A stretch of 64,000 nt of DNA, taken from assembly GCF_002754375.1 (NCBI RefSeq), contig NZ_PEFF01000001.1:6217501-6281500 (forward strand), in the 5' to 3' direction. The translations under genes were made by a program, and so were the position numbers. This stretch comes from Variovorax sp. 54 (GTDB lineage: Bacteria > Pseudomonadota > Gammaproteobacteria > Burkholderiales > Burkholderiaceae_C). A model generated the notes under the pieces. The model was not told the DNA's origin. It searched no databases and saw nothing but the letters and a program-made list of their open reading frames with translations. Positions 7,003 through 17,155 of this stretch are shown here, piece after piece. Each line of letters opens with the position of its first letter. Positions within the stretch are counted from its first letter, which is position 1.

Positions 7003-8547
7003 ATGCCCGTTGCTCCCTCCGCCGCCGCACCGCCGCCCGCCTTGCCCCTGGACGCCGAAGGCATCCTCGCGCTCGCCGCGCGCTCGATGTTTCATTTGTT
7101 TTCGAGCATCAGCCAGGGCATGTTCCTGGTCGACCGCAGCGGGCGCATCGTCTGGGTGAACGAGGGCTACCGGCGCTTCCTGCCGGCGCTGGGTTTCTCG
7201 TCGATCGACGAGTTCATGGGGCACATGGTCGAGGACGTGATTCCCAACACCATGATGCGCCGCGTGCTGGAAACGGGCGAGCCGATCCTCATCGACCTGC
7301 TGACCAACAAGGCGGGCACCTTCGTCGTGAGCCGCATCCCGCTGCGCGAAGAACGTGAGGACGGCGACCGGGGCCTGGGCGACGTGATCGGCGCCATCGG
7401 CATCGTGCTGTTCGACCAGCCCGAGACCACGCTGCAGCCGCTCATCAGCAAGTTCGCGCTGCTGCAGCGCGACCTCGACGACGCGCGGCGCGAGCTGGCC
7501 AGCCAGCGCAACAACCCGCTGTACCAGCACGCACCCGACGGCCAGCGCCGTTCCAAGTACACCTTCGCGAGCTTCATCGGCAGCAGCCCGGCGGCCGTGG
7601 AGGTGAAGCGCCACGCGCGCCGCGCCGCGCAGTCCACCAGCCCGGTGCTGCTGCTCGGCGAGACCGGCACTGGCAAGGAGCTGCTGGCGCATGCGATCCA
7701 TGCCTCGTCCACGCGCGCCAAGGGGCAGTTCGTCAGCGTCAACATCGCGGCCGTGCCCGACACGCTGCTCGAGGCCGAGTTCTTCGGCTTCGCCCCCGGC
7801 GCCTTCACCGGTGCCGACAAGCGCGGGCGCGAAGGCAAGTTCAAGCTGGCCGACGGCGGCAGCCTGTTCCTCGACGAGATCGGCGACATGCCGCTGGGCC
7901 TGCAGGCCAAGCTGCTGCGCGCGTTGCAGGAAGGCGAGATCGAGCCGCTGGGTTCCAACAAGCTGATCCCGTTCGATGCCCGCGTGATCGCCGCCACCTC
8001 GCGCGACCTGCCCGAGCTGGTGCGGCGCGGGCTGTTCCGCGAAGACTTGTATTACCGCCTCAACGTGCTGCCGCTGCGCGTGCCGCCGCTGCGCGAGCGG
8101 CGCAGCGACATCCCGGCGCTGGTCGAGGCACTGGGCGAAGACATGGCGCTGCGCAGCGGCGAGGCGCCGCCCGAACTCACGCCCGACGCGCTCGCGCTGC
8201 TGGCCGGCCAGCACTGGCGCGGCAACATCCGCGAGCTGCGCAATGTGCTGGAACAGGTGACGATGCGCAGCGACTCGCAGCGCATCGACGCGGCGCAGCT
8301 CGAACGCATCCTGCGGGAGGCGGGGCTGGAACAGATCGAGGCGCCCGACACCTCGCACAGCCTGCGCGACATCGACCAGGAAGCTGCGCTGCTGCGCCCG
8401 CTGTCGCAGCAGGTGGCCGAGCTGGAGCGCAAGGCGATCGCCGCCGCGCTCGAAAGCACGGGCGGCAACAAGCTCGCGACCTCACGGCTGCTGGGAATCT
8501 CGCGCGCCACGCTCTACGAGCGCATGACCGGGATGGGCTTGTCATGA
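7003..8547 (+). CDS. Sigma-54-dependent activator (PAS, AAA+, Fis HTH), possible 3-hydroxybutyrate/PHB regulator
   Basis: 514 aa from ATG 7003. The frame is open further upstream, but the protein-like sequence starts here. A PAS-like sensor covers about residues 30-140 ([19 protein letters not shown]). The AAA+ domain has Walker A GETGTGKE (219-226), the sigma-54 contact loop GAFTGA (266-271) and Walker [11 protein letters not shown] Fis-type helix-turn-helix ends the protein ([15 protein letters not shown]). There is no response-regulator receiver domain, so it probably senses a small molecule in the cytoplasm. A full sigma-54 promoter lies just downstream at 8920-8935. The architecture recalls the P. 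aeruginosa (R)-3-hydroxybutyrate activator PA2005/HbcR, a comparison made from memory. Its target is therefore likely the transporter/depolymerase operon. Confidence 0.93.
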
Positions 8548-8810
8548 GCGTGAAGGCATTGCGTTCCACCTTCGGCCCGAACTGCCATTGGTGCGGTCTG
8601 CCGATGGACTTCGACGAACCGCATGGGCGGCCCGAGTCGGCCACCATCGAACACCTGCTCGACGCCACGCTCGGCGGCGTGCGGCAGCAGAAGCACCGGC
8701 GCCTCGCGCACGCGGTGTGCAACCACACGCGCAACGAGTTGCGGATGCGGGCCGAACGCGAGTTCGAAGGCTGGCTCGCGGCGCGCCGCGACTCTGCTGG
8801 GAAACCCTGA
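8544..8810 (+). CDS. Small HNH-nuclease-like zinc protein
   Basis: 88 aa. The ATG overlaps the stop of the sigma-54 activator (ATGA), so translation is coupled. The pattern is that of a minimal HNH/McrA-type beta-beta-alpha metal fold: CHWC (Cys14, Cys17), IEHLL (His37), the GG turn, and AHAVCNHTRN (Cys59, Asn60, His61). There is no targeting domain, and nothing else of a restriction or toxin system is adjacent. Nuclease activity is a family inference; some small HNH-like proteins may only bind nucleic acid. The link to the activator is unexplained. Confidence 0.7.
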   Translation: MSVKALRSTFGPNCHWCGLPMDFDEPHGRPESATIEHLLDATLGGVRQQKHRRLAHAVCNHTRNELRMRAEREFEGWLAARRDSAGKP

Positions 8811-8818
8811 CTGATCAA

Positions 8819-8844
8819 CAGACAGTTGTCTGAAAACAAGACAA
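8819..8844. promoter_or_regulatory. Candidate upstream activator sites for the sigma-54 activator
   Basis: Two overlapping inverted repeats share half-sites: CAGACA-GT-TGTCTG (8819-8832) and TTGTCT-N7-AGACAA (8826-8831/8839-8844). They centre about 115 bases before the predicted transcription start, the normal distance for enhancer-binding proteins. The binding factor is inferred to be the product of the gene at 7003-8547. Confidence 0.6.
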
Positions 8845-15700: not shown

Positions 15701-16596
15701 GCGACGGCAACAACAACAGCACCATGACGCCGACATCGCACTACGCCCAGCTCTGCGGCCGTGAAATCCACTGGCTCGATTGGGGCGCCGCCAACGCGCC
15801 CGTCGTCATCGCCTGGCACGGCCTGGCGCGCACCAGCCGCGACATGGACGAGCTGGCGCAGCACTTCGCGGCGCGCGGCTTCCGCGTGATCTGCCCTGAC
15901 ACACTGGGGCGCGGCCTGAGCCAATGGAGCCCGGCACCCGACGACGAATACACGCTCGCGTTCTACGCGCGCCTGGCCAATGCGCTGTGCGACGAGTTGC
16001 GGCTGGGCCGCGTGCATTGGGTGGGCACGTCGATGGGCGGCGCGATCGGCACGGTCTGCGCGTCGGGCCTGTTCGAGCCGCGCATGAAGGCGCGCATCGC
16101 CAGCCTCACGCTCAACGACAACGCACCGCAGCTCGCGCAGGCCGCCATCGAGCGCATCCGCGCCTATGCCGGCGACCCGCCGGCCTTCGACACCGTGGCC
16201 GAGCTCGAGGCTTTCTTCCGCACGGTCTACAAGCCCTATGGCTGGCTCAGCGATGCGCAGTGGCGCCGGCTGACCGAAAGCTCCACGCGCCGCCTGGCCG
16301 ACGGCCGCGTCACGCCGCACTACGACCCGGCGATGGTCAAACAGTTCAGCGCGCACGACAACGACTACCTGATCTGGCCGCACTACGACGTGATCGAGGC
16401 GCCGGTGCTCTGTCTGCGCGGCGCCGAGTCCGACCTCGTGCTGCCCGAGGTGATCGACGAGATGCACCGGCGCGGGCCGGGTGCGGCCGGGCGCCTGCAG
16501 GTGATCGAGGTTGCGGGCTGTGGCCACGCGCCCGCGCTCAACGTGGCGGAACAACTGGACCCGATCGAAGGGTTTATTCGCGCGGCGGGTCGTTGA
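15697..16596 (+). CDS. Alpha/beta hydrolase translationally coupled to the transporter
   Basis: 299 aa. ATG 15697 overlaps the permease stop. Alpha/beta hydrolase fold with the oxyanion segment WHGLARTS, nucleophile elbow GTSMGG (Ser about residue 112), acid near ESDLVLPE and catalytic His in GCGHAPAL. There is no signal peptide, so it acts in the cytoplasm. Given the secreted depolymerase and the transporter before it, cleavage of imported 3-hydroxybutyrate dimers or oligomers is a reasonable inference; the sequence alone supports only an esterase-like hydrolase. Confidence 0.88.
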   Translation: MSDGNNNSTMTPTSHYAQLCGREIHWLDWGAANAPVVIAWHGLARTSRDMDELAQHFAARGFRVICPDTLGRGLSQWSPAPDDEYTLAFYARLANALCDELRLGRVHWVGTSMGGAIGTVCASGLFEPRMKARIASLTLNDNAPQLAQAAIERIRAYAGDPPAFDTVAELEAFFRTVYKPYGWLSDAQWRRLTESSTRRLADGRVTPHYDPAMVKQFSAHDNDYLIWPHYDVIEAPVLCLRGAESDLVLPEVIDEMHRRGPGAAGRLQVIEVAGCGHAPALNVAEQLDPIEGFIRAAGR

Positions 16597-16648
16597 AGGC
16601 GCGGCCGGATCACAATCCGGCCGACTTCAACTCCAAGATCACCTCGCC

Positions 16649-17155
16649 ATGGCCCTCTCGATGTACGACCTGTCCGTGCCGGTTTTCACCCGCGGACTCG
16701 GCCAACTCACCCACCTGCTCGACAAGGGCCTCGCGCATGCGAAGGCCCAGGGCATCGATCCGGCGACGCTGGTCGACGCGCGCCTCGCGCCCGACATGCT
16801 CACGCTGGCCGGCCAGATCCAGCGTGCGAGCGACGCCTCGAAGCTGGGCACGGCGCGCATCGCGGGCATCACCGCGCCGAGCTTTCCCGACGAGGAAAAG
16901 ACCTGGGACGATCTGCTGGCCCGCATCGCGAAGACGCAGGATTTCCTGGCGACCGTGGACCGCGCGCTCATCGACGGCCAGGAAGAACGCCCCGTGACCA
17001 TCAAGGCGCGCGAAGGCGAGGCGCACTTCACCGCGCAGCGCTACCTGCTGCAGTTCGCACTGCCGAACTTCTTCTTCCACGTGACCACCGCCTACGACGT
17101 GCTGCGCCACAAGGGCGTGCCGGTCGGCAAGATGGACTTCCTCGGCCGCTTCTGA
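16649..17155 (+). CDS. DUF1993 family protein
   Basis: 168 aa from ATG 16649. It matches the DUF1993 pattern, a DinB-like four-helix protein: MYDLSVPVFTRGLGQL at the N-terminus, then a central TWDDLLARI and a C-terminal LPNFFFHVTTAYDVLRHKGV helix with conserved His residues. No enzyme activity is established for the family. It lies 52 bases after the hydrolase, with no obvious terminator, and may be the last gene of the sigma-54 operon. Its link to that pathway is not obvious. Confidence 0.85.
   Translation: MALSMYDLSVPVFTRGLGQLTHLLDKGLAHAKAQGIDPATLVDARLAPDMLTLAGQIQRASDASKLGTARIAGITAPSFPDEEKTWDDLLARIAKTQDFLATVDRALIDGQEERPVTIKAREGEAHFTAQRYLLQFALPNFFFHVTTAYDVLRHKGVPVGKMDFLGRF

Follow-up and report, generated by a model that had tools for sequence, protein, structure and literature searches.

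The window analysed here is a 64,000 nucleotide stretch of Variovorax sp. 54 (contig NZ_PEFF01000001.1, positions 6,217,501 to 6,281,500), whose genome (G000) is a single contig of 6.64 Mb. Near its start lies a gene cluster that encodes a sigma-54 activator; a solute-binding protein of the LIV (leucine, isoleucine, valine) type, preceded by a sigma-54-like promoter site; a depolymerase, PhaZ, of poly(3-hydroxybutyrate) (PHB); two ATPases and two permeases of the LivG, LivF, LivH and LivM types; and an alpha/beta hydrolase, ABH (Table 1). All lie on the forward strand, all frames are open and their families were matched. Independent comparative evidence indicates that the locus is very probably what the original prediction, made from the letters alone, had proposed, a sigma-54-controlled PHB scavenging system, and we infer 3-hydroxybutyrate (3HB) and its short oligomers as its substrate.

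Table 1. Features of the locus, with positions in the window
Feature	Position	Strand	Basis
Sigma-54 activator, HbcR-like (PAS, AAA+, Fis-type HTH)	7003..8547	+	Pfam: Sigma54_activat 219 bits, HTH_8, weak PAS; relatives outside the family at 3HB loci
Small 88-aa frame	8544-8810		Between activator and binding protein, overlaps activator stop; CxxC by eye
Sigma-54-type -24/-12 site TGGCACGAACTGTGCA, one mismatch	8920..8935	+	Motif scan; position kept across loci
LIV-type solute-binding protein	8967..10154	+	Pfam Peripla_BP_6; closest solved chains 3n0x, 3nnd; pocket residues
Type 2 short-chain-length polyhydroxyalkanoate (PHB) depolymerase PhaZ, predicted secreted, fn3 domain	10330..11787	+	NCBIfam NF050059, Pfam fn3, triad alignment
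LivG-type ATPase	11837..12604	+	Pfam ABC_tran, BCA_ABC_TP_C
LivF-type ATPase	12750..13478	+	Pfam ABC_tran
LivH-type permease	13636..14619	+	Pfam BPD_transp_2
LivM-type permease	14633..15700	+	Pfam BPD_transp_2
Alpha/beta hydrolase (ABH), candidate cytoplasmic 3HB-oligomer hydrolase	15697..16596	+	Pfam; neighbourhood in family genomes; paralogue
DUF1993 gene	16649-17155		Pfam; after ABH

The predicted layout is confirmed. The LIV-type transporter is complete (binding protein, two ATPases, two permeases), its members matching LIV Pfam families within one gene run; a PAS-type sigma-54 activator does lie just upstream, its PAS match being the weak one; and the description of the hydrolase at the operon end as translationally coupled and cytoplasmic agrees with its start overlapping the LivM stop by 4 bases (ATGA) and with no signal segment being visible by eye. 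For the secreted type 2 depolymerase said to follow the first transporter gene, both position and family are borne out, and secretion rests on a signal-like N terminus judged by eye.

PhaZ is the single match in a search of its own genome and scores 398.6 bits against the curated NCBIfam model for type 2 short-chain-length depolymerases, NF050059 (cut-off 280). When PhaZ is aligned over the catalytic domain with the solved PHB depolymerase 2d80, its Ser48, Asp135 and His169 fall on the catalytic triad of that enzyme. Catalytic domain and triad are thus shared with extracellular depolymerases of this type, from which PhaZ differs in that its gene sits inside a transporter operon.

The motifs GTSMG, SDL and CGHAP are invariant in 45 aligned ABH members. 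Like the intracellular 3HB-oligomer hydrolases (PhaY of Cupriavidus), ABH is a small alpha/beta hydrolase with no signal evident by eye. A paralogue in the same genome lies divergently beside a 3HB dehydrogenase (L205 1498-3290; genome positions 6337929-6339715), this genome containing two 3HB dehydrogenases over cut-off, and this pair is adjacent in 8 of the 35 genomes that have both, from five families (among 100 genomes of the order). The arrangement is the same as that of PhaY2, a 3HB-oligomer hydrolase of Cupriavidus; ABH itself is 35% identical (over 305 columns) to the dehydrogenase-side paralogue, and its activity is a prediction.

Recurrence within and beyond the family

The cluster was surveyed in 250 genomes of the bacterial family (E cut-offs 1e-40 for PhaZ, 1e-80 for the binding protein, 1e-60 for ABH and 1e-40 for the 3HB-oligomer hydrolase family PF10605), which yielded PhaZ in 50, the binding protein in 134, ABH in 132 and PF10605 in 74. 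Neighbour counts from this survey are lower bounds, because contig ends hide some neighbours. Of the 50 PhaZ genomes, 33 have the gene next to the binding protein (32 by a 3-kb rule, plus G063 with two binding proteins in tandem), as 30 full-length matches and 3 partial ones, one of these at a contig end. The depolymerase and transporter therefore co-occur outside this strain, as the original prediction needed, and this recurrence led us to reject a chance adjacency in one strain. Of the 134 genomes that possess the binding protein, 33 have a full-length PhaZ somewhere, as opposed to 4 of the 116 that lack it. Among the 74 genomes with PF10605, 38 have it no more than 15 kb from the binding protein (G027 as a broken frame), and the same holds for ABH in 117 of its 132. 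One or both of PhaZ and PF10605 are found near the binding protein in 55 of 134 clusters, both in 16. The core of the cluster is the activator, the LIV transporter and ABH; the secreted enzymes PhaZ and PF10605 are optional modules.

These modules occupy fixed slots. Among 87 wide loci mapped (80 + 7, some cut short), the cluster genes share one strand in all 87; of 22 loci with PhaZ, 21 have it after the binding protein and before LivG and one has it at a contig end, and PF10605 follows LivM directly in 27 of 27. The activator was seen in 68 of the 87 and ABH in 76. In another set of 80 loci, mostly Variovorax because they were picked by ABH closeness, gene order is unchanged with or without PhaZ. 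A quick tree built from 113 binding proteins requires no fewer than 21 changes for PhaZ (31 rows) and likewise for PF10605 (36 rows), so that each must have been gained or lost many times; despite this, both keep the same slot in the loci mapped. Two loci from a single genus have, in the place of PF10605 after LivM and before ABH, a PF00135 carboxylesterase with a lipoprotein-like start (L244 3311-5050, 302 bits; L263 3299-5047, 93% identical to the former).

A second LIV system has been joined with the same enzymes. The orthologous cluster of G212 (L165) showed no secreted enzyme; elsewhere in that genome (L161 7807-20000) PhaZ, PF10605, an activator, a chemoreceptor signalling domain and a distantly related LIV transporter form one run, with an activator 57% identical to that of the window, LivG, F, H and M relatives at 30-41% and a binding protein at 26%. 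A LIV system therefore joined with PHB enzymes at least twice.

Some loci carry further genes. In eight, PF10605 is followed by a further and distant LIV-type binding protein that belongs to the same Pfam family (L176 12348-13493 and seven others). L219 contains a chemoreceptor with a Cache sensor, near-full-length relatives of which occur in L215, L232, L222, L231 and L220; it stands between activator and binding protein in L219 and L232, and chemotaxis toward the same substrate is possible. In a single distant cluster, a Gram-negative porin (PF13609; L170 3033-4196) separates ABH from the binding protein.

Beyond the family the signal thins. Of 398 phylum genomes searched, 23 gave a match to the binding protein; 15 of these lie outside the family, and from them 16 loci were taken (one genome having two); LivGFHM is beside it in 15 of the 16. 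In L155 of G440, from the same class and another order, a 3HB dehydrogenase gene (4755-5528) directly follows LivM, the sole such case in the 16 loci; it is over the cut-off of NF009931 (357 bits vs 340) and just under that of TIGR01963 (306.6 vs 307.05), and this copy has no ABH. Within the family, then, the connection to PHB is strong; outside it, connections to 3HB reappear in small number.

The stretch originally assigned to the cluster, 7003 to 17155, holds for the core genes and not for its last part, since the DUF1993 gene was rejected as a core component (it is absent from Pseudacidovorax, Limnohabitans and Curvibacter loci). It and the 88-aa frame, for which no Pfam family was matched, are outside the conserved core. 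Between LivF and LivH lies an inverted repeat of 51 nt, 86% complementary (13490-13620, motif CCCTCACCC..CCCTCTCCC), which looks like a mobile palindromic element; a degenerate copy is found at 12644-12664, between LivG and LivF.

Activator and promoter

Relatives of the activator (E 1e-95 or better) occur in 19 of 249 phylum genomes, 13 of them outside the family. Two of these 13 (G283 and G406, Bradyrhizobium-like by inspection) have it beside the same transporter. The other 11 loci, searched with genes of L178, L180, L182, L184, L188 and L164, all place genes of 3HB-catabolism type beside the activator: a 3HB dehydrogenase relative in 10 (counted from 62% upward against the L182 enzyme, from 79% upward against the L184 one, or as the query itself), an acetoacetate-CoA ligase in 8 and PF10605 in 3 (L184, L185, L186). 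L178 has solely a CoA-transferase-like gene, a GntP-like permease and a TRAP permease relative. The dehydrogenases of L182, L184 and L180 are all over the TIGR01963 cut-off (358, 308 and 353 bits vs 307), as are the acetoacetate-CoA ligases of L182 and L184 over theirs; PF10605 of L184 scores 848 bits, and L188 has a CoA_trans match.

The N-terminal sensor domain of the activator is kept in 14 relatives outside the family, at 33-46% identity. On a midpoint-rooted AAA+ tree, the window activator groups with the activators of 3HB loci (support 0.885, with the window protein present twice in the clade), and six further activators from the same genome fall outside this clade; a motif filter left out L154 and 2 of 9 strong hits in the same genome. 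Neighbours at L182-type loci match those of PA2005 (HbcR). The window activator shares with HbcR the make-up of PAS and sigma-54 activator domains, and its relatives are at loci of that layout; it differs in standing before an ABC importer and a depolymerase, the likeness being one of domain make-up and gene neighbourhood. PMC8694187 lists HbcR of P. aeruginosa as a sigma-54 regulator governing (R)-3HB catabolism.

The first base of TGGCACGAACTGTGCA is 47 bases before the binding protein start. Scanning up to 350 bases upstream of the binding protein, with GG and GC invariant and at most one mismatch, we found a sigma-54-type site in 87 of 130 loci, versus 0.66% of shuffled sequences; these loci include close relatives, and some genomes more than once, and among distinct upstream sequences 78 of 119 have a site. 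Where the binding protein is at least 75% identical, the site is present in 85 of 111 loci, at 45-96 bases; below 75% it is present in 2 of 19, at 211 and 238 bases. Over the whole window, sigma-54-like matches are not above chance (13 vs a mean of 36 in shuffles). A site near the strain's own 3HB dehydrogenase was dropped, as it lies on the opposite strand and precedes another gene. No sigma-70 promoters were found.

Substrate and rival explanations

In the scheme that we propose, PhaZ (in relatives also, or instead, PF10605) would cut PHB outside the cytoplasm; the binding protein would capture 3HB and short linear oligomers by their carboxylate; LivGFHM would import them; ABH would cleave the oligomers to 3HB in the cytoplasm; and a chromosomal 3HB dehydrogenase would oxidise it. 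The activator may sense 3HB or a product through its PAS domain and switch the operon on via sigma-54, and bacteria that have the transporter and ABH yet lack a secreted enzyme would feed on fragments that others release. The adjacency of PhaZ, the presence of PF10605, the 3HB-type relatives of the activator, the distant 3HB dehydrogenase and the pocket residues described below all agree with the scavenging function first proposed, the substrate being deduced from them. Oligomers rather than monomer are somewhat favoured as the main cargo because of ABH, a preference we keep slight because the L155 copy lacks that gene.

The closest solved chains of the binding protein, 3n0x (E 1.7e-174) and 3nnd (E 2e-166), are deposited as possible substrate-binding protein; the three papers listed for them proved unrelated, and neither code appears in PMC3223731. 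That source describes, from a screen, LIV-type binding proteins for other amino acids and for aromatic, fatty and dicarboxylic acids; hydroxybutyrate is absent from its main text. The window protein and 18 relatives (n=19) were aligned with E. coli LivJ. Tyr18 and Ser79 of LivJ are kept in 19 of 19. Its Thr102 and Glu226 are the residues that hold the amino group; the Thr102 column has Val in 16, Ile in 2 and Ser in 1, and the Glu226 column has Ile or Leu in 17 of 19 and Asn in 2 of 19 in this alignment, a smaller alignment giving a gap there. The window protein has no acidic residue in the Glu226 segment. Such a pocket fits a carboxylate without an alpha-amino group.

It is highly improbable that the cluster is an ordinary transporter of branched-chain amino acids that acquired PhaZ by a chance insertion. 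The cluster has the fold, the five-part make-up and the Pfam families of LIV importers, also called hydrophobic amino acid uptake transporters (HAAT; LivJ/K-HMGF, urea Urt), but falls below the curated leucine and urea cut-offs: all five of the NCBIfam models LivJ/K, LivG, LivF, LivH and LivM are missed, LivK/J with 63 bits vs 477 and LivG with 195 vs 362. The replacement of LivJ Glu226 and Thr102, the ester-hydrolysing enzymes in the operon and the recurrence of PHB enzymes and a 3HB-type activator at the locus likewise argue against it, and on cut-offs, adjacency and pocket we rejected a leucine transporter with a chance insertion. A less likely but sizeable alternative is that the transporter takes 3HB monomer only, all ester cleavage being outside and ABH acting on another ester or on leaked intracellular PHB oligomers. 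It would account for the lack of any ABH relative in 12 of the 15 outside-family LivGFHM loci, including all four with the activator, for the G440 copy that ends in a 3HB dehydrogenase instead of ABH, and for activator relatives elsewhere beside GntP-like or TRAP carriers; the published importer hbtABC, too, is for 3HB (PMC10130141). Against it, ABH is near the binding protein in 117 of the 134 family genomes that have the latter, and here overlaps LivM. Seven genomes also have ABH within 4.5 kb of PF10605 and away from the binding protein: three carry the latter on a different contig, and in four (G018, G213, G231, G245) it was not found, the locus of G018, the one read among these four, having no LIV genes. 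Rather unlikely, in our judgement, is that the system serves some different hydroxy acid or ester (lactate oligomers, for instance, other hydroxyalkanoates or a mixture), PHB being one of several substrates; the PF00135 enzymes in the slot after LivM and the many clusters without either PHB enzyme would suit this, whereas the recurrence at the locus of two distinct families of PHB enzymes, of a 3HB-type activator and, once, of a 3HB dehydrogenase would not.

The PHB scavenging interpretation, which we retain, must itself be tempered by several observations. Neither PhaZ nor PF10605 was shown by 79 of 134 clusters; PhaZ is elsewhere in 17 of its 50 genomes (7 full-length, 10 with a catalytic-domain match only); and on the tree the two enzymes are not significantly correlated at the locus (median p 0.25). 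The 16 loci outside the family include PhaZ in none, PF10605 in one (L141, with an acyl-CoA synthetase), the activator in four, ABH at 47-50% directly after LivM in two and, in one, an ABH relative (32%) ahead of the binding protein; with PHB genes so sparse there, the ancestral substrate may be broader. No curated NCBIfam model reaches its cut-off with ABH, and the Glu226 column depends on the alignment, as noted above.

The locus is a variant built of known parts and no new class. Whether it also represents a modular PHB locus type, with the logic of a polysaccharide utilization locus, we regard as evenly balanced; such a type would pair an HbcR-type sigma-54 switch with a LIV importer that carries 3HB oligomers and was taken on two or more times from separate LIV lineages; an inner oligomer hydrolase would be added, as would interchangeable outer esterases (PhaZ, PF10605, PF00135), each in its set slot, and lineages devoid of the outer enzymes would cross-feed on public PHB fragments.

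PHB is a common natural polyester and a marketed bioplastic, and its products' uptake by bacteria is little known. With hbtABC (SPO2571-2573) of Ruegeria pomeroyi, called in 2023 the only confirmed bacterial 3HB uptake system (PMC10130141), the system described here shares its proposed substrate; hbtABC consists of three genes, not a five-part LIV system, and the available part of that source mentions no depolymerase. Oligomer uptake by PHB-degrading Undibacterium was merely supposed in the part of PMC7199957 available. Our literature search, which reached few subscription papers, found no LIV-type transporter for PHB products, nor an oligomer importer; none of the former is described in the available parts of PMC13373117, PMC13390443 and PMC11374999. 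The use of a HAAT system for PHB products, flagged from the start as novel, is therefore still without a precedent that we could find. If the interpretation is correct, the locus would add a new substrate class to a large transporter family whose members are usually annotated as taking up amino acids, would supply parts for bioplastic recycling, and would provide a genetic marker for bacteria that eat PHB and, possibly, for their cross-feeders.

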